Positions 4,736 through 30,506 of a stretch of DNA of 64,000 nt are shown here, piece after piece. Each line of letters opens with the position of its first letter. Positions within the stretch are counted from its first letter, which is position 1. This DNA is from Aliiroseovarius sp. Z3 (GTDB lineage: Bacteria; Pseudomonadota; Alphaproteobacteria; Rhodobacterales; Rhodobacteraceae). Location of the stretch: assembly GCF_029105185.1 (NCBI RefSeq), contig NZ_JAFMZK010000002.1, positions 1-64,000 on the forward strand. The letters run 5' to 3'. The notes under the pieces were generated by a model. That model saw only the letters and a program-made list of their open reading frames with translations. It ran no database searches and had not been told where the DNA came from. Made by a program: the position numbers and the translations under genes.

Positions 4736-5761
4736 ATGCCAAAACAGAATATCAGACCCACACAACGCACAATCGCTGATCGGTTAGGCATTTCGGTTGG
4801 CGCGGTCTCGCGGGCGTTGGCAAACGATGCACAGATGTCTGAAGAAACGCGTGCCTCGGTCCGAAAAACTGCCGAAGAGCTGGGATATACGCCTGACCGT
4901 GCCGCGCAACGCCTGCGTACTGGGCGGACATATGTCATCCATCTCATCCTGCCGCCGCATAATGAAATTCTTGGGTTCGGAAACCTTCTTGTAGGTGGCA
5001 TCAGCGCTGGTTTGGTCGACACGCCCTTTGATTTGCTGGTTTGGCCTGATCATGGGAACGAACAATCGCTGGACCGGATCGAACGGATCGTTCGCTGCAA
5101 TCTGGCGGATGGTATCATTTTTTCGCGCACAAGCCCGGATGACAGCCGCATCCGGTTTCTTTCTGAGGCTGGGTTCCCCTTTGCAACACATGGGCGGTCT
5201 GAATTTGCGACGCCGCATGCGTTTGTCGATTATGACAATCATGCGTTCGGCAAGCAGGCAGCCGAGAAGATGATCGAGCGTGGGGCGAAGCGGCTGGCGA
5301 TCCTTCTGCCTGATGATCGGTTCATGTTTCATCATCATCTTCTGCATGGGTTTATGGCAGCGGTGCGGGCCGCCGGCGTCGACTATGAAGTTCTTGACGG
5401 GATATCGCTGGATAGCGGGGGGCATGAGATATCGGATCAGTTACGCAACCGGTTAAGCAAGGCCAACCCGCCGGACGGGTTGATCTTTCCAGGTGATGTC
5501 TCGGCCTTGGCCGGGCTGGCGGCCATTCAGGACCGTGGTCTGACTGTGGGTCGCGATGTGCACGTCATGGTCAAGCAGACTTCTGGGGTGTTTGACCTTG
5601 TGCGGCCGTGTGTGGACAGCCTGCACGAAGACCTGTCGGCAGCCGGACGGTCGTTGGCCCAGATAATTGTTGATCGGATCAACGGCGTGCCTGCAGGGGA
5701 TCTACAGCGCGTTCTTCCTGTGCTGACCACGCCGGATCACGCGCCCATTGCCGCGGATTAG
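4736..5761 (+). CDS. LacI-family transcriptional regulator
   Basis: A 341-residue repressor. The N-terminal helix-turn-helix (RTIADRLGISVGAVSRALAN, residues 11-30) is followed by the hinge (GYTPDRAAQRLRTGRT) and a periplasmic-binding-protein-like effector domain. It faces the fructokinase gene and is followed 37 bases later by the AGE-family isomerase, so it probably senses a hexose or its derivative. The inferred operators in the intergenic gap support local regulation. The true ligand cannot be read from sequence. Confidence 0.88.
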   Translation: MPKQNIRPTQRTIADRLGISVGAVSRALANDAQMSEETRASVRKTAEELGYTPDRAAQRLRTGRTYVIHLILPPHNEILGFGNLLVGGISAGLVDTPFDLLVWPDHGNEQSLDRIERIVRCNLADGIIFSRTSPDDSRIRFLSEAGFPFATHGRSEFATPHAFVDYDNHAFGKQAAEKMIERGAKRLAILLPDDRFMFHHHLLHGFMAAVRAAGVDYEVLDGISLDSGGHEISDQLRNRLSKANPPDGLIFPGDVSALAGLAAIQDRGLTVGRDVHVMVKQTSGVFDLVRPCVDSLHEDLSAAGRSLAQIIVDRINGVPAGDLQRVLPVLTTPDHAPIAAD

Positions 5762-5798
5762 CCAGCCGTAGTTCCAGCGATAATAAACAGAGGTTTTC

Positions 5799-7037
5799 AT
5801 GACAGATTATCATCCATGTGCGCCCAAACCCCGGCACCGATTTGGTACGCCGGAACATCGTGAATTCTTGAGTTCTGATGCGCGGCGCCAGTTTTCGTTT
5901 TTCAACGAAAGCCTGCGCCCAGACGGTGGGTTCTACGTGCTTGGCCACGAAGGGGCGCCCCTTGCAGACACCGTGCAAGAGCTTCACACAACCACGCGCT
6001 TGGTGCATTCTTATGCGTTGGGAAAACTGGCCGGGTCACCGGGGTGTGATGCGGTGATTGATGCCGGGATGGACTATCTCTGGAACCATCATCGCGATGC
6101 AGATCATGGCGGATACTTCTGGGCACTGGACCGCGACGCCGTGCATGATGATCGCAAGCTGGCTTATGGTCATATGTTCGTGCTTCTGGCCGGGGCCAGC
6201 GCCAAGCTCGCGGGACACCCGGATGCAGATCGTTTGATCGACGATGTGAGCGCTGTCCTTGACCAGAAGTTTTGGGAAGACGACGCAGGGCTGTTTGCGG
6301 ATGAATGGAACCGCGACTGGTCACCGTTTTCGACCTATCGCGGCATGAACGCAAACATGCATGGTGTCGAAGCTTTGTTGACCGCATACGAGGCAACGGG
6401 GCGGGATGGGTATCTTGAGAAGGCCGGTCGCATACTCGAATTCTTTACCGGCAGGATTGGTCCTGCGGAGAACTGGAGATTGCCCGAGCACTATACCGAG
6501 ACTTGGCAGACTGATCGGGACTATTCCGGCAACCCTATGTTCCGTCCGGCAGGAACAACGCCGGGTCATTCCTTCGAATTTGCGCGGCTGTTGTTGCAAT
6601 ACTGGGATCTGCGCGGCCGCCCCGAAGAAGGGTCGCGCGACGCCGCGTGGGCGTTGACCGAACGCGCGTTGACAGATGCGTGGAACGCCGAAAGCGGGGG
6701 GCTGTATTACACACTGGATTTTGGTGGTGCTCCTGCGATCCGCGACCGCTACTGGTGGCCGGTGACCGAGGCCATCGGTGTGCTTGCAAGTTTCCTAAAG
6801 CTCGGCGGCACCAAGGAACAAGGCGACTGGTACGCGCGACTTTGGCAATTCGCGGACACCCATTTCATCGACCACGAGCGCGGTGGCTGGTATCCCGAAA
6901 TTGATCAGGCCGGTCATCCAACCGTTACGCAATTCAACGGAAAGCCCGACATCTATCATGCCGTGCAGGCTTGCCTGTTTCCCCTTTCGACTCGATTGTC
7001 ACATATTGCCGTTCATCTGGGTGGCGCTCTTCGATAA
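5799..7037 (+). CDS. AGE-family aldose-ketose isomerase (mannose isomerase-like)
   Basis: A 412-residue (alpha/alpha)6-barrel enzyme of the N-acylglucosamine 2-epimerase superfamily. Conserved histidines occur in MHGVEALL (H188), GHSFEF (H257) and DIYHAVQA (H387), the positions used for ring opening and proton transfer in YihS and mannose isomerases. The length matches isomerases of this family. Its neighbours suggest mannose-to-fructose conversion feeding fructokinase. No dedicated sugar transporter is present, so the sugar would enter by another system. An N-acyl-hexosamine epimerase is a less likely alternative. Confidence 0.8.
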   Translation: MTDYHPCAPKPRHRFGTPEHREFLSSDARRQFSFFNESLRPDGGFYVLGHEGAPLADTVQELHTTTRLVHSYALGKLAGSPGCDAVIDAGMDYLWNHHRDADHGGYFWALDRDAVHDDRKLAYGHMFVLLAGASAKLAGHPDADRLIDDVSAVLDQKFWEDDAGLFADEWNRDWSPFSTYRGMNANMHGVEALLTAYEATGRDGYLEKAGRILEFFTGRIGPAENWRLPEHYTETWQTDRDYSGNPMFRPAGTTPGHSFEFARLLLQYWDLRGRPEEGSRDAAWALTERALTDAWNAESGGLYYTLDFGGAPAIRDRYWWPVTEAIGVLASFLKLGGTKEQGDWYARLWQFADTHFIDHERGGWYPEIDQAGHPTVTQFNGKPDIYHAVQACLFPLSTRLSHIAVHLGGALR

Positions 7038-7157
7038 GCGTCCGAGAAATTTTGCGAACATGATTTGTGTCATTGCGCGCGCCCACCAGTTCAGTGCAAT
7101 GGATCGGACCTGACCGGGCAGTCATTGAACGCCCAAACCCGTCTGAAAGAGGATCAA

Positions 7158-7571
7158 ATGTATAAGAAAATTCTTGTCCCCATGGCGCTGGATCACGGTA
7201 TCTCGCCCGAGACGCTTGAGATCGCCAGAAACCTTCTGGCGGAAGGTGGCGATATCACGGCGCTGCATGTCCATGAGGCTCCGCAAGCCTCTGTGAGTGC
7301 ATATCTGAACGATGATATCGTGAAGGCCGGTCGCGATCATGCCCATAACACTCTGATGAAAAAAACAGAGGGGTTAGAGGGGGTAACGCCCGTGCTTCTG
7401 ACCGGACACACGGCACGCACGATTATTGACTATGCGCACAAACACGACTTTGACTGCGTGGTGATTGGGTCGCATAGACCGGGCCTCAGCGACTTTTTCC
7501 TGGGGTCAACCGCGGCGCGGGTGGTGCGGCATTGTCGATGTGCAGTGCATGTTCAACGAACGCAGAACTGA
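7158..7571 (+). CDS. Universal stress protein, UspA family
   Basis: A 137-residue single-domain protein beginning MYKKILVPMALDHG. The ATP-binding type signature is visible near the C-terminus: GSHRPGLSDFFLGS, then TAARVVRHC. The start was chosen at the ATG preceded by AGAGGA; longer frames lack homology. It stands alone between the isomerase and a terminator. Its role in stress survival is inferred from the family. Confidence 0.88.
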   Translation: MYKKILVPMALDHGISPETLEIARNLLAEGGDITALHVHEAPQASVSAYLNDDIVKAGRDHAHNTLMKKTEGLEGVTPVLLTGHTARTIIDYAHKHDFDCVVIGSHRPGLSDFFLGSTAARVVRHCRCAVHVQRTQN

Positions 7572-7621: not shown

Positions 7622-8767
7622 TCAAAGCACCTCGTTAAAAAGCTGCGTCAGGTTCTCTTTGGTCAGTTCAATCGGGTTGCCACCGCATGAGGGGTCGATC
7701 AATGCGCCTTTCACCAACGTGTCAATCTCAGGATTGCTGATGCCCAGATCGCTGACGCGCTTCGGGATCGCCATGCTGTCATTGAAATCCTGAACGAAGG
7801 ATTGGAAGCCTTCGAACCCACCTGTGATGCCCAGATAACCAGCGGCCAGATCAAACCGATCCTTGATCGCCGGTGCATTGAAGCGCAGCACCGCAGGCAT
7901 ACAGATCGCGTTCGTCGTGCCATGGTGGGTATGATACATCGCGCCAATCGGATGGCTCAGCGCATGGATCGCGCCCAGCCCTTTTTGAAAGGCGGTGGCC
8001 CCCATCGCGGCGGCGCTCATCATGTTGGCGCGTGCCTCGATATCGGTCCCGTCAGCATAGGCGCGGGGCAGGTTGTCGATGACCAGTTTCATCCCTTCAA
8101 GCGCGATGCCCTGGCTCATGGGGTGATAATGCGGGCTGGAATACGCTTCGACACAATGGGCGAACGCATCCAGACCCGTGCCCGCCGTGATGAATTTCGG
8201 CATCCCCACAGTCAGCTCCGGATCGCAGATCACCACGCTGGGCAGAACTTTGGGGTGGAAAATGATCTTCTTTTCGTGTGTTTGCGAATTGGTGATCACG
8301 CTGGCGCGCCCGACTTCGGATCCTGTTCCGGCAGTGGTCGGAACCGCAACGATAGGCGCGATGGCGGCCGCGTCGGCACGGGTCCACCAATCGCCAACGT
8401 CCTCAAAATCCCAAACGGGGCGCGATTGGCCAGCCATGAAGGCAACCATTTTGCCCAGATCCAGCCCAGATCCGCCGCCAAAAGCGATCACACCATCATG
8501 CCCGCCAGCCTTATAGGCTTCGACACCGGCGGTCAGGTTCACCTCGTTCGGGTTCGGATCCACATCTGAAAACAGACCGCGGCCCAGCCCTGCGGCCTCC
8601 ATGATATCCAGCGTGTCCTTGGTGATCGGCAGATCGGCCAACCCTTTGTCTGTCACCAACAATGGCCGCTTGATACCCGCTTGCGCGCATGCTTCGGGAA
8701 GTTCTTTGATGCGGCCGGCACCAAACTTGATTGCGGTCGGATAGGACCAGTTTCCTTGCAGGCTCAT
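7622..8767 (-). CDS. Iron-containing alcohol dehydrogenase (group III)
   Basis: A 381-residue NAD(P)-dependent dehydrogenase. The N-terminal nucleotide-binding part has FGGGSGLDLGK. The PTTAGTGSEVGR segment and the metal-binding part (DAFAHCVEAYSS, then HALSHPIGAMYHTHHG) supply the Asp/His iron ligands. The start at 8767 overlaps the aldehyde dehydrogenase stop by 4 bases (ATGA), so the two are translationally coupled. It is the last gene of the RpiR-linked catabolic operon. It probably oxidises a hydroxyl on the pathway intermediate to an aldehyde for the preceding enzyme. Confidence 0.9.
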   Translation of the reverse strand: MSLQGNWSYPTAIKFGAGRIKELPEACAQAGIKRPLLVTDKGLADLPITKDTLDIMEAAGLGRGLFSDVDPNPNEVNLTAGVEAYKAGGHDGVIAFGGGSGLDLGKMVAFMAGQSRPVWDFEDVGDWWTRADAAAIAPIVAVPTTAGTGSEVGRASVITNSQTHEKKIIFHPKVLPSVVICDPELTVGMPKFITAGTGLDAFAHCVEAYSSPHYHPMSQGIALEGMKLVIDNLPRAYADGTDIEARANMMSAAAMGATAFQKGLGAIHALSHPIGAMYHTHHGTTNAICMPAVLRFNAPAIKDRFDLAAGYLGITGGFEGFQSFVQDFNDSMAIPKRVSDLGISNPEIDTLVKGALIDPSCGGNPIELTKENLTQLFNEVL

Positions 8768-10146
8768 GACGTCACCTTCTTCAAATGATAGGATTTCGGG
8801 CGCGTCAGGTTCTGATAGCCGATCACCGACAATCCCCCACCACGACCGGTGTTTTTGCAGCCGGTCCAGCACAGGCCCGGATCAAGATAATCTGCACGGT
8901 TCATGAATACCGTTCCGGTTTCAATCTGATCGCCCACGGATTGTGCGCGCTCAACATCACGCGTCCAAAGTGACGCTGTCAGTCCGAACTCGCTGTCATT
9001 CATCAGACGGATCGCCTCAGAGTCGTCTTTCACCGGCATGATGCCGACCACCGGGCCAAAACTTTCATCCCGCATCACACGCATATCGTGGGTGACATTG
9101 GTCAGGATCTGCGGCGTGAGGTATGCGCCGCCGTCATCTTCGGGGAAGGTGTCGATATGGGCCGTCGCACCGTCGGCTATTGCTTCGCTGATCTGGGCGC
9201 GGACTTCATCGGCAAAACGAACATTTGCCATTGGGCCAAGCGTTGTTTCCACATTCAGCGGATTTCCCAGCTTATAGCCTTTCACGATCTCGACAGCCTT
9301 TGCGACGAACGTATCAAACAGGCTTTCATGCACGTAAATCCGTTCGATCCCGCAACAGCATTGGCCCGCATTGAACATCGCACCGTCGATCAAAGTTTCA
9401 ACAGCGGCATCCAGATCGGCGTCATCCATGACATATCCGGGGTCTTTGCCACCCAACTCGGTTCCAACACCGGTGAACGTACCTGCCGCGGCGCGCTCCA
9501 TCGCCTGCCCGCCGCCGACCGAGCCGGTGAAGTTGACAAAATCAAACGCGTTGCCCGCGATAAGATCGTTGGTCACATCATGCGATAGAAACACGTTCTG
9601 AAACACGCCCTCGGGCAAACCGGCCGAGCGGAAAGCGGCTTCCATGCGCTCTCCGACCAACAAGGTTTGGGTGGCGTGCTTCAAGACGACGGTGTTGCCC
9701 GCGATCAGCGCAGGCGCGACCGTGTTAATCGCGGTCATGTAAGGATAGTTCCAAGGCGCAACCACAAACACGACGCCATGCGGCACACGTTTGATGTAAC
9801 GCTTGAACGTTTCATCTTCACCAACCTCGATGTCGGCCAACGCATCTGCCGCAATCGAAGCCATATGGCCAGCACGTTCATTGAAGCCGCCAAACTCACC
9901 GCCATAGCGCACGGGGCGACCCATCATATGGGCCAGCTCTGGCACGATGTCGTCATTCATCGCCCCCACGGCGGCAACACCAGCCATGACCAACTCGATC
10001 CGTTCCGCCAACGGGCGCGCCGCCCATTCAGGTTGCGCCGCGCGTGACGAAGCTACAACGTCTTTGGCCTCATCAAGCGAAAGCACCTCTCGCGTTGCAA
10101 ATACCGATCCATCAATCGGAGAGATACATTCCAATATCTGCTTCAT
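8764..10146 (-). CDS. Aldehyde dehydrogenase family protein
   Basis: A 460-residue NAD(P)+-dependent aldehyde dehydrogenase. The cofactor site is in VAPWNYPYM and FTGSVGGG; the general base is E230 in TELGGK and the catalytic cysteine C264 in the unusual triple-Cys motif GQCCCG. The start at 10146 is preceded by GAGGACAG; the longer frame upstream is non-coding. It sits between the glutamine-synthetase-like gene and the iron alcohol dehydrogenase. This fits oxidation of a gamma-glutamyl-amino aldehyde, as PuuC does in putrescine degradation. Substrate is inferred from context. Confidence 0.9.
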   Translation of the reverse strand: MKQILECISPIDGSVFATREVLSLDEAKDVVASSRAAQPEWAARPLAERIELVMAGVAAVGAMNDDIVPELAHMMGRPVRYGGEFGGFNERAGHMASIAADALADIEVGEDETFKRYIKRVPHGVVFVVAPWNYPYMTAINTVAPALIAGNTVVLKHATQTLLVGERMEAAFRSAGLPEGVFQNVFLSHDVTNDLIAGNAFDFVNFTGSVGGGQAMERAAAGTFTGVGTELGGKDPGYVMDDADLDAAVETLIDGAMFNAGQCCCGIERIYVHESLFDTFVAKAVEIVKGYKLGNPLNVETTLGPMANVRFADEVRAQISEAIADGATAHIDTFPEDDGGAYLTPQILTNVTHDMRVMRDESFGPVVGIMPVKDDSEAIRLMNDSEFGLTASLWTRDVERAQSVGDQIETGTVFMNRADYLDPGLCWTGCKNTGRGGGLSVIGYQNLTRPKSYHLKKVTS

Positions 10147-10185
10147 TCTGTCCTCATTTCTGAAACACCCCTGCATTTTCTTGTT

Positions 10186-10228
10186 GAAAATATCCCGGGG
10201 GACGCCGAAGGCGGGGGGCAGCGCCCCC
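10186..10228 (-). repeat. GC-rich palindromic extragenic element inside the operon
   Basis: Read on the minus strand, this gap has GGGGGCGCTGCCCCCC, then GCCTTCGGC, then CCCGGGATATTTT. This resembles the G/C-block elements ending in a short T-run that often follow genes in Rhodobacteraceae. It begins right after the glutamine-synthetase-like stop codon and precedes the aldehyde dehydrogenase. It may act as a partial terminator or an mRNA-stabilising hairpin. Confidence 0.5.
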
Positions 10229-11590
10229 TTATGCCCTCTCAAACCCGCGTGCAATCTCCCAATCGGTGACCACACGCTCGAATTCTTCAATCTCGACTTC
10301 TGCGGCACGGGTATAGTGATCAACGACATCATCACCCATTGCAGCCCGCAACATGGCCGATCCATGCAGGGCGTCGCGTGCCGCTTGCAGGTTGCCCGGG
10401 ATCATCCCCGTGTCGCCCTGATAAACATCGCCTACGGTTGGCTCCTGAAGCTCCAACCCTTCCTCGATCCCGGCGATCCCGGCGGCCAGCATTCCTGCAA
10501 TGGCCAGATAAGGGTTCATGTCCGATCCGGGGATGCGGCATTCCACGCGCACCGCTTTGGTGCCTTCTCCGCATAACCGGAAGCCAGCCGTGCGATTGTC
10601 GACGGACCAGATGATCCGCGTAGGTGCAAAGGTGCCCTTCATGAACCGTTTGTAGCTGTTGATATAGGGCGCCATGAAATAGGTGTAATCCGGCGCATAT
10701 TTCAGAAGCCCGGCCATGTAGTTTTTCATCAGGGCCGACATGCCCAGCTTGTCGTCGGCATCCGCGAAGGCGGGTTTGCCGTCCTTCCACAGCGATTGGT
10801 GCACGTGGCTGGAGGATCCGACCTTGTCATGGTGCCATTTCGGCAAGAAGCTGGCCGCATGGCCCTGTTGCCACGCGATTTCCTTCACCGCGTGTTTGGC
10901 GATGGTGTGAAAGGCTGCCGTATCCATCGCGGGGGCGTATTTGATGTTCAGCTCTTCCTGACCGGCCTCGGCCTCGCCCTTGGAATTCTCAATCGGCAAA
11001 CCGGCGTTCCACAGGTGATTGCGGATCGGCCGCATCACGTGCTCTTCCTTGGTGGTTTGCAGGATGTGGTAATCTTCGTTGTAGCCCGAGATGGGGGCCA
11101 GATCGCGGAACCCGCCTTTGCGGATGTCCTCGAAACTCTTTTCGAACAGGAAAAACTCCAGCTCGGTCGCGCACATCGCGTCAAAGCCCATCTCGGCCAG
11201 ACGGGCGACCTGTTTCTTCAGGATGGCACGGGGCGAATGGGGCACGTCTTCGTGGGTGTGGTGATCCAGCACATCGCACAGCACCATTACTGTGCCCTCA
11301 AGCCATGGCACCGGGCGCAGCGTGTCTAGATCGGGCTTCATGACATAGTCGCCATAGCCCCGTTCCCAACTGGTCGACGCGTATCCGTCCGGCGTTGCCA
11401 TTTCCAGATCGGTGGCCAGCAGGTAGTTGCAGCAATGGGTTTCCTCCCATGCGCCCGCCACGAAATGCCCCGCGTGGAAGCGTTTGCCCATCAGTCGGCC
11501 CTGCATGTCGACAAAGCATACCAGAACGGTGTCGACATCGCCGGTGGCGATTTGGGATTTAAGGTCATCGAACGAAAGTGTTGGCGACAT
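10229..11590 (-). CDS. Glutamine synthetase-like gamma-glutamylamide ligase
   Basis: A 453-residue member of the glutamine synthetase superfamily, close in layout to PuuA/IpuC-type enzymes that join an amine to the gamma-carboxyl of glutamate using ATP. An N-terminal beta-grasp domain is followed by the catalytic domain, with ELE at 143-145, GEAEAGQEE at 205-213, HVHQS at 262-266, NRTAGFR and the C-terminal VECRIPGSDMNPYLA. The start was chosen at MSPTLSFDD. It lies in an operon with a TRAP transporter, aldehyde and alcohol dehydrogenases and an amidohydrolase, so a catabolic role is likelier than ammonia assimilation. Confidence 0.85.
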   Translation of the reverse strand: MSPTLSFDDLKSQIATGDVDTVLVCFVDMQGRLMGKRFHAGHFVAGAWEETHCCNYLLATDLEMATPDGYASTSWERGYGDYVMKPDLDTLRPVPWLEGTVMVLCDVLDHHTHEDVPHSPRAILKKQVARLAEMGFDAMCATELEFFLFEKSFEDIRKGGFRDLAPISGYNEDYHILQTTKEEHVMRPIRNHLWNAGLPIENSKGEAEAGQEELNIKYAPAMDTAAFHTIAKHAVKEIAWQQGHAASFLPKWHHDKVGSSSHVHQSLWKDGKPAFADADDKLGMSALMKNYMAGLLKYAPDYTYFMAPYINSYKRFMKGTFAPTRIIWSVDNRTAGFRLCGEGTKAVRVECRIPGSDMNPYLAIAGMLAAGIAGIEEGLELQEPTVGDVYQGDTGMIPGNLQAARDALHGSAMLRAAMGDDVVDHYTRAAEVEIEEFERVVTDWEIARGFERA

Positions 11591-11655
11591 TGTGAAAGAA
11601 CCTTCTGTATGTGTGCCGGGCGGAACCCCGCCCGGCGATATGCGTGCTGCAAGGC

Positions 11656-12690
11656 TTAGCCGTAGCGATACGGACGGCCAGCTTTCTGCATGTCTGCATT
11701 GTATTTCTTGATGATCTCCACGACCTTCGCCTTGGTTTCGCTTTCCGCGGCGATCTCGTCCCAGAACTTCACGGCGGCCTCTTCGACCTGTGCCCATTCG
11801 GCATCCGGGATGGTTGTCAGTTCCATCTTCGGCCCGTTTACACGCAGGCTGGCTTCGCCGCCCCAATACCACCACTGGCGGTAATAGTGTGATTGGTCGC
11901 AGCACACCCGGAACAGGGTTTTCAGGTCGTCCGGCAGCTCGTTCCACCGGTCCATATTGGCAAAGAACGACCCTGCCCATGCGCCCGAGATATTGTTGGT
12001 CAGGAAATAGTTGGTCACGTCTGCCCAGCCAACCGTGTAGTCTTCGGTGATGCCCGACCACGCGATGCCGTCAAGCTCGCCGGTCTGCACCGCGACTTCG
12101 ATGTCTTCCCATGGCAGGGTGACAGGCACGACGCCAAACTGGCTCAGGAACCGGCCAGCGGTCGGGAAGGTAAATACGCGTTTGCCTTTCAGATCCTCAA
12201 GCGAGTTGATCGGATCCTTGGTAGCGAAGTGGCAGGGATCCCATGCGCCCGCGCTGATGTGTTTCACCCCGACCTTGGAGTATTCGGCGTCCCAGATTTC
12301 GTTCAGGCCGTATTGGTTGAACAGAACCGGCACATCCAGCGAATAGCGCGAGGCGAACGGGAAATACCCGCCGAACACGGTGACTTCTGTCGGTGACGCC
12401 ATCGAGTCGTCATCCGACTGGACCGCATCAATCGTGCCGCGCTGCATGGCCTGAAACAGCTCGCCCGTGGGCACAAGCTGGTCGGCGAAGAACAGTTCGA
12501 TCTGCATCCGGTCGCCAGCGATCTGGTTAAACATATCGATGGCGGGCTTGATGACATGCTCGGCCAGTGCAGGACCAGCATAGGTTTGCATCCGCCACGT
12601 GATCGTGGACTGCCCAAGCGCGGGCGTGGCAAGCGGCGCGGCCAGCGCACCGACACCGGCACCGGCGATAAACTTACGTCTTGTCGTCAT
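11656..12690 (-). CDS. dctP: TRAP transporter substrate-binding protein (DctP/TakP-like), Tat-exported
   Basis: A 344-residue periplasmic solute receptor. The N-terminus carries a twin-arginine signal (RRKFIAGAG, R4-R5) with cleavage near residue 26 (ALGQ). The body has family features such as the DLKGKRV block and a conserved arginine (FPTAGRF) that usually binds a substrate carboxylate. AAGGAG precedes the ATG at 12690. It works with DctQ and DctM encoded upstream. A 5-bp hairpin (12719-12733) lies between dctM and dctP, possibly raising receptor expression. The ligand is unknown but should be anionic or zwitterionic. Confidence 0.9.
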   Translation of the reverse strand: MTTRRKFIAGAGVGALAAPLATPALGQSTITWRMQTYAGPALAEHVIKPAIDMFNQIAGDRMQIELFFADQLVPTGELFQAMQRGTIDAVQSDDDSMASPTEVTVFGGYFPFASRYSLDVPVLFNQYGLNEIWDAEYSKVGVKHISAGAWDPCHFATKDPINSLEDLKGKRVFTFPTAGRFLSQFGVVPVTLPWEDIEVAVQTGELDGIAWSGITEDYTVGWADVTNYFLTNNISGAWAGSFFANMDRWNELPDDLKTLFRVCCDQSHYYRQWWYWGGEASLRVNGPKMELTTIPDAEWAQVEEAAVKFWDEIAAESETKAKVVEIIKKYNADMQKAGRPYRYG

Positions 12691-12741
12691 TTCTCTTTCT
12701 CCTTGTTGTAAAATCATGGCCTGTTTCTCAGGCTCTTTCCT

Positions 12742-14067
12742 CTAGTTTCCGTAAACCCAGCCCGGTAGCCACAGTGCAATCTCGGGGAACAGGATGACCA
12801 TTGTCAGAGCCAATACCATCACCAGCACGAAGGGCAGGATCGAACCATAGATATCGCGCAGTGTGATTTCTGGTGGCGCCATCGCGCGCATCAAAAACAG
12901 GTTATAGCCGAAGGGGGGCGTCATATAGGCAATCTGAGTCGTGATCGTATAGAGCACACCATACCAGATCAGATCGAACCCCAGCGCAGAAACCAACGGC
13001 ACGTAAAGGGGGGCAACGATGACCAGCATCGCCGTGTCGTCCAGAAATGTGCCCATCAGGATGAAGCTCAGTTGCATCAGGATCAGGATCACCCATGGGT
13101 TCAGGCCCAGCCGTTCGGTGAATAGGGTCTCAATCGCCTTGACTGCGCCCAGCCCGTCAAACACAGCCCCGAAGGCCAGTGCGGCAAGGATGATCCACAT
13201 GAACATGCAGCTGATGCCAAGGGTCATTCGCACGGACGTTTCAAACACCTCGCGCGTCATGCGGCCTTTCAGAACGGCCGCCATGAACGCGGTCAACGCC
13301 CCGATGGCCGAGCTTTCCACCAGCGATGTCCAGCCATTGACGAAAGGCACCATCATCGCGGCGAAGATCACCAGCGGCAACATTCCGGCCCGCAACAGCG
13401 CCAGCTTTTCGGACATGGGGATGTCGCGTTCTTCCTTCGGAAGCGCCGGGCCAAGGGACGGGTTCAGGTGACAACGCACGGCGATATAGATGATGAACAT
13501 CGTCGCCATCATCAGGCCGGGCAAGACGCCTGCCAGCCACAACTGCCCCACCGGTTGACGTGCGATCATGGCATAGAGCACAAGCACCACCGACGGGGGC
13601 ACAAGGATGCCCAGCGACGATCCGGCCTGAATGACCCCCGTCACCATTTTCTTGTCGTAGTTCCGTTTCAAAAGTTCAGGCAGGGCAATCGTCGCGCCAA
13701 TGGCCATGCCCGCGACGCTTAGCCCGTTCATGGCCGAGATCAGCACCATCAACCCGATGGTCCCGATAGCCAGCCCGCCTTTCAGCCCGCCCATCCAGAC
13801 GTGGAACATCTTGTAGAGGTCATCCGCAATCTTCGATTCCGACAGCACGTAGCCCATGAAGATGAACATTGGCAGGGTCAGCAGCGGATACCATTTCATC
13901 AGCTTCATCGCGGATGAGAACGCGATGTCATAGCCGCCCCGGTCTCCCCACAGCACCAGCGCGGCGATGACGGCCACAAACCCGATGGCGCCAAACACGC
14001 GCTGCCCGGTCAGAAGCATCGCCATCATGGTCGCGAACATGAAGATCGCAATCATCTCATACGACAT
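12742..14067 (-). CDS. dctM: TRAP transporter large permease subunit DctM
   Basis: A 441-residue polytopic membrane protein with about 12 hydrophobic segments. It is the ion-coupled transport channel of a TRAP system. Conserved family stretches are visible: GQRVFGAIG, GISCMFMW, LDDTAMLVIVAPLYVP and TPPFGYNLFLMR. It overlaps dctQ by 11 bases and is followed by dctP, the usual complete three-gene set. Confidence 0.93.
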   Translation of the reverse strand: MSYEMIAIFMFATMMAMLLTGQRVFGAIGFVAVIAALVLWGDRGGYDIAFSSAMKLMKWYPLLTLPMFIFMGYVLSESKIADDLYKMFHVWMGGLKGGLAIGTIGLMVLISAMNGLSVAGMAIGATIALPELLKRNYDKKMVTGVIQAGSSLGILVPPSVVLVLYAMIARQPVGQLWLAGVLPGLMMATMFIIYIAVRCHLNPSLGPALPKEERDIPMSEKLALLRAGMLPLVIFAAMMVPFVNGWTSLVESSAIGALTAFMAAVLKGRMTREVFETSVRMTLGISCMFMWIILAALAFGAVFDGLGAVKAIETLFTERLGLNPWVILILMQLSFILMGTFLDDTAMLVIVAPLYVPLVSALGFDLIWYGVLYTITTQIAYMTPPFGYNLFLMRAMAPPEITLRDIYGSILPFVLVMVLALTMVILFPEIALWLPGWVYGN

Positions 14068-14575
14068 TGTCGATCTCCTCGCCGCGCAGGCGCAGTATGT
14101 CTTTGAACAGCTCGGAAAGGGCTTGCAGCAGCATCAGCGCGATGCCGGTGCACATGATCACCTTGATCGGCCAAAGGTATGGGCGCCACGCGGTTGGGCT
14201 GCGCTCGCCCCCGTATTTGAAGGAATAGGCTGTGCTGTCGATCCCGCCCCACAAAAGCACACCCAGATAGAAGATCAGGAACATCACCGTGATCGTGTCG
14301 ACGGCGGCTTTGCGACGGGTGCTCCACCCACCATACAGAAGGTCCATCCGCACATTCGATCCCATCTGGATCGAGTAGGGGCCGCCGAGGATGTAATAGG
14401 CGACCATGGCGAACTGCGCCATTTCCAGCGTCCAGAGCGATGGGTTGAAAAAGGTCTTCGAGATCGACGACCACAACAGGATCGCCATCATGGCGAAGAT
14501 GCCATACATGGTCACGCGCCCGATGCGATAGTTGATCTGGTCAACAATACTGATGAATTTGCGAAGTGCAGTCAT
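14057..14575 (-). CDS. dctQ: TRAP transporter small permease subunit DctQ
   Basis: A 172-residue membrane protein with four hydrophobic segments and the family motif GSNVRMDLLYG after the second. It is the small integral partner of DctM. Its start overlaps the preceding amidohydrolase-like stop by 4 bases (ATGA), so the amidohydrolase and transporter are one translationally coupled unit. Confidence 0.9.
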   Translation of the reverse strand: MTALRKFISIVDQINYRIGRVTMYGIFAMMAILLWSSISKTFFNPSLWTLEMAQFAMVAYYILGGPYSIQMGSNVRMDLLYGGWSTRRKAAVDTITVMFLIFYLGVLLWGGIDSTAYSFKYGGERSPTAWRPYLWPIKVIMCTGIALMLLQALSELFKDILRLRGEEIDNVV

Positions 14576-15348
14576 GTTTTGACAGATTCCGATGAGGTTA
14601 GGTGTGCCATGACCTGTGTCAGTGTTTTTGCGAGGTGATCGGCCATGGCTTCGGCAGTTGCGGGCGTGTCGATCAGATCGTTGCGAATTTCGATCATGAC
14701 ATTGTCCAGCCCACGCGCCTCGGCATGTTTGGCCAGCGTATAGGTCACACCGTCGCGGGCGGCGTAAGGTTCATTGATAGCAGTGCGATAAGCGCCCCGG
14801 GTCTGCTCAATTTCGACAGCGGCTGTGGCGACTTTGCTGTTCCTGTCGTGCAGATATCCGATGTCCAAAGTCCGGCGCTGACCGTGGTAAACTGGTGTGA
14901 AGCTGTGAATCGTAATCAGCAGAACAGGTGTCTCAGTGCGGCTGCTTTGTTGGTCAATCGCCTGATCGACGACGGCGTGAAACGGCGTATGGACCACATT
15001 GAACCGATGCTGTTTCGCGGCGGGGCTCAGGTTCGCATTGCCGGGAATGTCGAACACTTCGCTGCGGGCCGGAATGCAGTCGGGGGCTTCCAAAGGGCGA
15101 TTGCAATCGTAGACCAACCGCGAAATCTGCCCCGCAACCAGGGGCGCATCAAGCAAGGCGCTTAGACGCTTGGCGACATCCAAGGCGCCAATATCCCAAG
15201 CGGCATGAGAGTTCAGCGCATCGTCCGCCAACCCAAGGCTTTCAAGTTCTGGCGGGATGAATTGGGATGCGTGTTCGCAAACAAGCACGACGGGAGCTGT
15301 TCCCGCAGCCCCTATCAGCGCAGCCGCTGGCCAAACCTCTCTGAGCAT
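14572..15348 (-). CDS. N-formylglutamate amidohydrolase-like protein
   Basis: A 258-residue protein of the N-formylglutamate amidohydrolase (FGase/HutG-type) family, a zinc-dependent amidase fold. Recognisable blocks are VCEHASQFIPPEL, SRLVYDCNRP, TIHSFTPVY, GYLHDRNS and EIRNDLID. It is first in the operon, with TRAP, ligase and dehydrogenase genes downstream and no histidine-utilisation genes nearby. I infer that it hydrolyses a glutamyl or acyl amide of this pathway rather than N-formylglutamate from histidine. A paralogue is encoded at 29751-30506. Confidence 0.82.
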   Translation of the reverse strand: MLREVWPAAALIGAAGTAPVVLVCEHASQFIPPELESLGLADDALNSHAAWDIGALDVAKRLSALLDAPLVAGQISRLVYDCNRPLEAPDCIPARSEVFDIPGNANLSPAAKQHRFNVVHTPFHAVVDQAIDQQSSRTETPVLLITIHSFTPVYHGQRRTLDIGYLHDRNSKVATAAVEIEQTRGAYRTAINEPYAARDGVTYTLAKHAEARGLDNVMIEIRNDLIDTPATAEAMADHLAKTLTQVMAHLTSSESVKT

Positions 15349-15374
15349 ATTTCTTGCCCCCCCGTTTCGCGTTG

Positions 15375-15390
15375 TGTAATTATCACTACA
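15375..15390. promoter_or_regulatory. Putative RpiR operator, copy 1
   Basis: TGTAATTATCACTACA; on the reverse strand TGTAGTGATAATTACA. It matches copy 2 (15419-15434) in the pattern TGTAGNNATWNTTACA, with TGTA/TACA ends. It lies 26 bases upstream of the catabolic operon's first start codon. Confidence 0.6.
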
Positions 15391-15418
15391 ACAAGTCCGC
15401 TTGTGTCAAGAAGTATTC

Positions 15419-15434
15419 TGTAGATATTATTACA
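15419..15434. promoter_or_regulatory. Putative RpiR operator, copy 2
   Basis: TGTAGATATTATTACA, the second 16-base copy. It starts 44 bases from copy 1 and 31 bases before the regulator's start codon. Two matching sites in a 117-base divergent gap suggest joint control of the regulator and the catabolic operon. Confidence 0.6.
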
Positions 15435-15465
15435 GTACGATTTTTGCTGATTGAAATGGTGACAA

Positions 15466-16326
15466 ATGGGAAAGAAGCCTCTCGTCAAAGATCAAATCCG
15501 CGAAAAGCAGGATGAGCTGACCGCGGCTGAACGGCGTCTGACGGCTACGCTTCTGGATGATTCTCTGGTGGCGGGGTTGCAGTCGATCACCAAGCTGGCC
15601 GAAAGCGCCGAGGTTTCGACCCCGACAATTATCCGCTTGGCCCGCAAGCTTGGCTATCAGGGCTTCCCAGACCTGCAAGACGCCATCCGCGAAGAGATCG
15701 CCGCGCAGATGAAAGAACCACTGGCCAAGCTGGAAACGGCAGAGCTGTCGGCGGGCAAAGATCACATCATCAGCCGGTTTGCAGAAGCCGTATCGCGTAA
15801 CATCAATCGCAGTTTAGAGCGTCTGGATCTGGAAGAATTCGACAAGGCAGCGGCCCTTTTGTCCGATTTGAACCGACGGCTATACCTGCTGGGAGGTCGG
15901 ATCACCCGATCCAATGCCCATTATTTTTTCAACCACCTTCAGATTATCCGGCCCGGTGTAACGCAGCTGGATTTTTCGCCCAGCGTTTGGCCGCAATCGC
16001 TGCTGGACATGGATGAAAACTCGACGCTGATCGTATTTGACATCCGGCGATATGAAAAAGAACTGGAGCGTCTGGCCAAGCTTGTGGTCGATCAAGGCGC
16101 GAACATTGTGCTGTTCACGGACCAATGGGGGTCGCCGATTGAACGCTACGCGACCTTCTGTTTTCGCAGCATGGTCGAAGTGCCATCAAGCTGGGATTCC
16201 ACGCTCGCCATCAACTTCCTGATCGAGGCGCTGGTTGCTGAAATCCAAAGCCGTAGTGACAGTGCGGACCGGATTGCGGCCCTGGAGGACATGATTGGCG
16301 AATCTCGAATATTCCGCAGCAACTGA
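15466..16326 (+). CDS. MurR/RpiR-family transcriptional regulator
   Basis: A 286-residue regulator with an N-terminal RpiR helix-turn-helix (ITKLAESAEVSTPTIIRLAR at residues about 44-63, then KLGYQGFPDLQ) and a C-terminal SIS domain starting near residue 130 (LYLLGGRITRSNAHYF). SIS domains usually bind phosphosugars, but this subgroup often regulates amine or amino-acid catabolism. It is divergent from the seven-gene TRAP/ligase/dehydrogenase operon and separated by twin 16-base palindromes, its likely operators. Confidence 0.88.
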   Translation: MGKKPLVKDQIREKQDELTAAERRLTATLLDDSLVAGLQSITKLAESAEVSTPTIIRLARKLGYQGFPDLQDAIREEIAAQMKEPLAKLETAELSAGKDHIISRFAEAVSRNINRSLERLDLEEFDKAAALLSDLNRRLYLLGGRITRSNAHYFFNHLQIIRPGVTQLDFSPSVWPQSLLDMDENSTLIVFDIRRYEKELERLAKLVVDQGANIVLFTDQWGSPIERYATFCFRSMVEVPSSWDSTLAINFLIEALVAEIQSRSDSADRIAALEDMIGESRIFRSN

Positions 16327-29750: not shown

Positions 29751-30506
29751 CTACAACCCGGTTTTTGCCAAGGTTTCCGTCAGGATTGGGGCCAGACGCT
29801 CTGCCCAGCCGCGCTGTTGGTCTTCGGTTTCGATCAGATCATTACGGATTTCGATCAAAACATTGACCCGCCCGGTCAAAACCGCGTGGCGATCAATGCT
29901 GTCACCATCCAGATGGCCGCCATAGGGTTCATTTTCACCAACGCAGAGGTCGGGTTCTTCTCGGAGCCGTGCAATCAGGGGGGTGGCCAGCCGGCTGTCG
30001 CGGTCATGCAGGATCGCAATGTGCCACGGGCGTTTTTCGCGCCCATTCAGCTGCGGCGTATAGGAATGCATCGCAAGGATCACGCTGTTGTTTTGCCGCG
30101 CGGCAAGACGCGCGACGGCCCGGTGATAGGGGCGATGAAATGCGTTCAGTCTGCGGTCGCGTTCCACCTGATCAACATGGCGGTTTGCGGGAACGACGGT
30201 GCCGTCGTAGAGTTTCATCACAAGCGTCGGATCATCTTCGCCCCGGTTGGGATCAATCACGAGCCGCGAGAAATTTGACAGGATGGCCGGGGCATCAAGC
30301 AGATCGGACAAATGGCGCGAGACGCCCGCCGCGCCGACATCATATGCGATGTGTCGGGCCATGTCCCCGGGTGCGACACCCAGGTCGCCATTTGCCACGC
30401 AGGGCGGTACGGTGTTGGCGGCATGATCACATGTGATCAGCCAGCGCGAGGGCCGATCTTCGCCAAGGATAAAGTAGGGATGGTATGTCATACGTGTGTC
30501 ATTCAT
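29751..30506 (-). CDS. N-formylglutamate amidohydrolase-like protein, second copy
   Basis: A 251-residue paralogue of the operon-encoded protein at 14572-15348. Shared blocks are ITCDHAANTVPP, SRLVIDPNRG, AMHSYTPQLNG, AILHDRDS and EIRNDLIE. The zinc-binding His/Glu set of the FGase family appears intact. It is divergent from pyruvate kinase and not part of a hut operon, so its substrate is uncertain. Confidence 0.82.
   Translation of the reverse strand: MNDTRMTYHPYFILGEDRPSRWLITCDHAANTVPPCVANGDLGVAPGDMARHIAYDVGAAGVSRHLSDLLDAPAILSNFSRLVIDPNRGEDDPTLVMKLYDGTVVPANRHVDQVERDRRLNAFHRPYHRAVARLAARQNNSVILAMHSYTPQLNGREKRPWHIAILHDRDSRLATPLIARLREEPDLCVGENEPYGGHLDGDSIDRHAVLTGRVNVLIEIRNDLIETEDQQRGWAERLAPILTETLAKTGL

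Follow-up and report, generated by a model that had tools for sequence, protein, structure and literature searches.

Which compound is handled by the eight-gene locus at positions 7622-16326 of the 64,000-nucleotide stretch of Aliiroseovarius sp. Z3 analyzed here (contig NZ_JAFMZK010000002.1, positions 1 to 64,000; hereafter the window), and is its pathway a new one? The locus combines tripartite ATP-independent periplasmic (TRAP) transport genes with a glutamine synthetase (GS)-like ligase, two dehydrogenases and an FGase-family hydrolase, next to a divergent RpiR-family regulator. We find that the system is very probably an ethanolamine (Eto) operon of the type of Phaeobacter sp. MED193, and that ethanolamine is, with high likelihood, its substrate. 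This operon is already published and hence already known. The genes are the following.

15466-16326, plus strand: RpiR-family regulator (Pfam HTH_6 and SIS), divergent from the operon, counterpart of MED193_10021
14572-15348, minus strand: FGase-family hydrolase (Pfam FGase, 139 bits), predicted gamma-glutamylglycine amidohydrolase (GGAH)
14057-14575, minus strand: DctQ, TRAP small permease (Pfam DctQ), EtoV
12742-14067, minus strand: DctM, TRAP large permease (Pfam DctM), EtoW
11656-12690, minus strand: DctP, TRAP solute receptor, predicted ethanolamine binder from its homology to MED193 EtoX and 4uab, EtoX
10229-11590, minus strand: GS-like ligase, predicted ethanolamine gamma-glutamylase (ETAGA) from its MED193 match, 806 bits to 5dm3 and Gln-synt_C domain (319 bits)
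8764-10146, minus strand: aldehyde dehydrogenase (Pfam Aldedh), predicted gamma-glutamylglycine maker (GAADDH)
7622-8767, minus strand: iron alcohol dehydrogenase (Pfam Fe-ADH), predicted gamma-glutamylethanolamide dehydrogenase (GETADH)

The ethanolamine operon of Phaeobacter (Roseobacter) sp. MED193, MED193_10021 to 10056, is described as RpiR, GGAH, EtoV, EtoW, EtoX, ETAGA, GAADDH and GETADH (Westermann 2023, PMC10132767; this and the other papers are cited from their available portions). MED193 itself is among the loci we compared (L013), and by direct locus comparison its eight genes, their order and the divergent regulator are the same as in the window, that is, rpiR, ggah, etoVWX, etaga, gaaddh and getadh. 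The window proteins are most similar to their MED193 counterparts for DctP (92% identity), the ligase (85%), the alcohol dehydrogenase (83%) and the aldehyde dehydrogenase (82%), followed by DctM (61%), DctQ (60%), the FGase-like protein (45%) and RpiR (41%). MED193 EtoX is reported to bind ethanolamine with a dissociation constant (Kd) of 7.9 uM and not to bind phosphorylethanolamine, phosphocholine or two glycerol phosphates, GGAH, EtoX, ETAGA, GAADDH and GETADH are all up in phosphorylethanolamine-grown MED193, and the share of ocean bacteria with etoX is put at about 5 to 10% (PMC10132767). An earlier sequence-only reading of the locus had proposed that an amino alcohol is imported by the TRAP system, gamma-glutamylated, oxidized twice and released by an FGase-like protein in the place of PuuD, which agrees with the MED193 route as published. 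The same reading had called the substrate unknown and TRAP import unlike the known routes; in MED193 the substrate is ethanolamine and, since its TRAP import is in print (PMC10132767), the claim of an unprecedented route does not hold. Ethanolamine can therefore be named as the substrate with good odds and without new experiments, and the operon lets marine bacteria recycle phospholipid head groups as a source of nitrogen and carbon.

We compared the arrangement across 80 loci, the best 80 of 585 relatives, and 16 further distant family loci, which were picked for lower identity from 107 family genomes with a receptor match. These 107 genomes, out of 198 sampled from the family of the window with its own genome counted, have a receptor match of E 1e-100 or better. 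In 70 of the 80 loci, the eight genes are all there, at least in part, in the same order and orientation, and because so many keep the full set, the arrangement is not due to chance; the count leans to near relatives, since the 80 are the best of the 585. A contig end cuts five loci (L006, L014, L029, L056 and L077), and genes are missing in five more, namely L030 (rpiR, ligase and both dehydrogenases), L032 (aldehyde dehydrogenase), L049 (FGase, ligase and both dehydrogenases), L062 (alcohol dehydrogenase) and L075 (FGase). The full set is also present in 12 of the 16 distant loci; L111 is without rpiR and FGase, and L113, L114 and L116 have the transport genes only (L116 is cut by a contig end). 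The nearest operon relatives are L007 and L008, both Aliiroseovarius, and L006, an alphaproteobacterial metagenome-assembled genome. In L049 (5060-10011), rpiR, DctQ, DctM and DctP are followed by a porin-like frame, and in L030 (5265-10924), the FGase and TRAP genes are followed by an MttB-family methyltransferase on the opposite strand.

A sequence search of solved structures with the window DctP gives 644 bits for 4uab and 4xf5, two entries of one protein; aligned with 4uab, it has the same residue at 268 of 318 positions (84%). The 4uab structure shows Csal_0678 of Chromohalobacter salexigens in complex with ethanolamine, whose amine and hydroxyl are held by Glu220 (PMC12410723), and Csal_0678 is described as being without the arginine by which TRAP receptors take carboxylates (PMC4646407). 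At that position the window DctP has a phenylalanine (F182), as does 4uab, where all eight other DctP proteins found in the genome carry Arg; among 97 other aligned sequences, 90 have Phe and seven have Tyr. E225 of the window DctP, which from the leader length probably corresponds to Glu220 of 4uab, is Glu in all 97. The receptor is accordingly of the EtoX/Csal_0678 type, with the platform Glu present and the carboxylate Arg absent. A sulfonate substrate such as cysteinolic acid had also been considered, and was dropped once DctP matched 4uab.

Other receptor types occur among the relatives. A second type, in L106-L110, L115 and L117, is 62-65% identical to the window DctP, has Tyr for Phe and carries the segment SAAGQDPCNF in place of SAGAWDPCHF, and the operon around it is otherwise the same. 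In L108, identity to the window is 88% for the ligase and 87% and 84% for the dehydrogenases, against only 64% for the receptor, which suggests that the receptor alone has been swapped. A third type, in L111, L112, L113, L114 and L116, lies within a full eight-gene set in L112 and is accompanied by DctQ and DctM only in L113, L114 and the truncated L116. Beside the transport genes of L113 are an FGGY kinase and FAD oxidoreductases, and beside those of L114 an FAD oxidoreductase.

Pocket variants thus exist within the same operon, and 4xf5, which we take to hold 2-aminopropanol, implies that the receptor may accept more than ethanolamine. Both points would fit another small amino alcohol of this kind, such as 2-aminopropanol or serinol, as the main substrate in place of ethanolamine. 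We consider this improbable, because the window DctP belongs with the MED193 receptor and Csal_0678 (92% and 84% identical), MED193 EtoX was measured with ethanolamine, and glycine derived from ethanolamine fits the glycine cleavage protein of the genome. The sequence-only reading had favored an unknown amino alcohol bearing a negative group, as might be expected from TRAP substrates being mostly carboxylates, but this has hardly any chance of being right: the Phe that replaces the carboxylate-selecting Arg speaks against a negative group, the nearest solved receptor was crystallized with ethanolamine, and the phosphate-bearing analogs tested were not bound by MED193 EtoX.

The ligase matches 5dm3 in the search of solved structures (806 bits); we take 5dm3 to come from Chromohalobacter salexigens, the organism of 4uab. 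It scores under the NCBIfam cut-offs for GlnA (246 of 429.15 bits) and type III GS (230.7 of 469.6 bits), and far under that for gamma-glutamylputrescine synthetase (GGputSyn, 191.7 of 650 bits). In an alignment with L004 of the same genome, which has FDGSS and FEAP and which we named GlnA-like from this alignment, the window ligase is without the DGSS segment and the flap Glu, presumably the ammonia-site residues (Asp50 and Glu327 of Salmonella GS). By this loss of the ammonia site, the protein is probably a GS-fold gamma-glutamyl ligase and not a glutamine synthetase. That it is instead an ordinary glutamine synthetase in a cluster that imports a keto acid, as its Gln-synt_C domain would allow, is extremely unlikely in view of the two GS cut-offs, the absent DGSS segment and flap Glu, and the four other GS-like matches in the genome.

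In the ethanolamine pathway that we propose for the window, EtoVWX (DctQ, DctM and DctP) would import ethanolamine, which the ligase would join to glutamate at the expense of ATP to give gamma-glutamylethanolamide. The iron alcohol dehydrogenase and then the aldehyde dehydrogenase would oxidize the alcohol end to yield gamma-glutamylglycine, the FGase-like hydrolase would split this into glycine and glutamate, and the glycine could enter the glycine cleavage system, with RpiR controlling the unit through the two dyads between rpiR and the FGase gene. We infer every step in this organism, the enzymatic ones from homology and position and the regulation from the dyads. The genome encodes GcvP of the glycine cleavage system, and a search of the same genome (99.99% complete) gave no match to EutB of the ethanolamine ammonia-lyase (EutBC) route, with a positive E. 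coli control.

By the NCBIfam hutG_amidohyd cut-off of 278.75 bits, the FGase-like protein, which scores 28.8, is not a HutG, and its sole solved relative at E 0.001 is 2odf, Atu2144. Forty-two positions are kept in at least 97% of 89 aligned proteins, including E25, H26, H48, H148 and E220, which are candidates for zinc binding or catalysis. The sequence-only reading had noted that PuuD is missing, and there is indeed none in the operon; elsewhere in the genome, at C6:333247, lies a Peptidase_C26 protein (203 bits), at most a possible PuuD, of a broad family that has matches in 14 of 14 control genomes. The operon itself therefore lacks a PuuD-like hydrolase, but the rest of the genome may contain one. 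A second FGase-family protein is encoded in the window at 29751-30506 on the minus strand, adjoining a frame that resembles pyruvate kinase by eye, and the genome has four FGase-family places.

Besides the possibly wider ligand range of the receptor suggested by 4xf5, some points weigh against reading the locus as a MED193-type ethanolamine operon. RpiR and the FGase-like protein are the parts least conserved relative to MED193, and the assignment of the hydrolase substrate and of the regulator signal therefore rests mostly on position. Five of the 80 receptor-bearing loci are without some of the operon genes where no contig end intervenes, so the receptor is not confined to the full set. In the available portions of the literature, we found no assay of the later enzyme steps, and the accounts of the Chromohalobacter route disagree, since it is called "demonstrated" in one paper (PMC10132767) and "predicted in silico" in another (PMC6529630).

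How might the operon be controlled? Motif analysis of the 117-base gap between the FGase gene and rpiR gave two predicted elements.

15375-15390, no strand assigned: predicted operator dyad 1, TGTAATTATCACTACA
15419-15434, no strand assigned: predicted operator dyad 2, TGTAGATATTATTACA, 44 bases from dyad 1 start to start

Both 16-bp dyads fit TGTAR-N6-YTACA, a pattern that is its own reverse complement, and they stand upstream of the two start codons, at distances of 26 and 31 bases. The pattern matches twice in the window against 0.03 expected, and these are also its only matches genome-wide, where the same pattern read backward matches 19 places; because the chance figure scales to ~1.6 for the genome, it is the pairing within the gap that is telling and not the total. 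We counted the motif in the gaps of 97 sequences (the window, the 80 and the 16), seven of which have no usable gap. Of the 20 gaps in which RpiR shares at least 54% identity with that of the window (window counted), 18 contain it, vs 1 of the 70 whose RpiR is more distant, and there is no occurrence in 1.47 Mb of flanking DNA; the 20 gaps, all from related genomes, are not independent of one another. With a spacing of exactly 44 bases and no more than two mismatches over both dyads, a pair is found in 13 of the 20 gaps. In six more, such a pair exists only with a different spacing, and L117 has none; the spacing control is noisy, as at another of 50 spacings four of those 13 gaps also reach at most two mismatches. 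The 70 gaps with an RpiR below 50% identity have no single shared dyad, and TGGAA- and TGAAA-type dyads appear in at most 10 of the 70 each. A scan of the gap found no terminator, and a weak promoter-like site at 15403-15430 on the plus strand (0.2 expected) overlaps dyad 2.

We read the dyads as the predicted operator pair of this RpiR clade, and found no description of them in the available portions of the literature searched, including PMC10132767. Taken with the alternating receptor types, they lead us to suggest, tentatively and with slightly more doubt than belief, that this RpiR clade regulates the Eto operon through a 16-bp dyad pair of its own, which is not in the loci with MED193-like RpiR, and that the pathway may have been rewired at the sensor and the receptor several times.

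As for the gene calls, all eight frames are present with the Pfam families, order and strands that the sequence-only reading had given them. Inspection of the start codons likewise bore out its overlaps of 4 bases between the FGase gene and dctQ, 11 between dctQ and dctM, and 4 between the aldehyde and alcohol dehydrogenase genes. The preferred starts are 12690 for DctP, 11590 for the ligase, 10146 for the aldehyde dehydrogenase and 8767 for the alcohol dehydrogenase; for DctP, the ATG at 12690 was chosen over a longer frame from 12717 because a twin-arginine leader opens there. The host genome comprises 3.52 Mb in 11 contigs, and a tRNA scan found two tRNA-Met, neither of them inside the operon. 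Facing the operon end, at 4736-7571 on the plus strand of the window, are a LacI-like frame (by eye), a GlcNAc 2-epimerase-family protein and a universal stress protein, the latter two of which lie beside the operon only in L007 and L008 among the 80 loci, some of which are shortened.

Among known systems, the PuuABCD putrescine pathway glutamylates, oxidizes and hydrolyzes its substrate. The window locus shares this logic, and differs in a ligase under the GGputSyn cut-off, an operon without PuuD and import by a TRAP system. The MED193 operon, the same as the window in genes and order, is unlike it in that the TGTAR-N6-YTACA dyad of the window gap is not in the MED193 gap. For the GlnA4 cluster of Streptomyces coelicolor, an assay of the ligase is reported together with predictions for the later steps, among them hydrolysis by an FGase-family protein (PMC6529630). 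By its described chemistry, this cluster is like the window in having gamma-glutamylethanolamide as the first product, two predicted dehydrogenases and the predicted hydrolase, and unlike it in that its genes as listed include a putative ethanolamine transporter in place of the TRAP genes and a short-chain dehydrogenase in place of the iron alcohol dehydrogenase (PMC6529630). The Csal_0678 system of Chromohalobacter salexigens has a gammaproteobacterial host, unlike that of the window, and is like it in the receptor, with its 268 of 318 identical positions, and in the ligase, with its 806-bit match to 5dm3.

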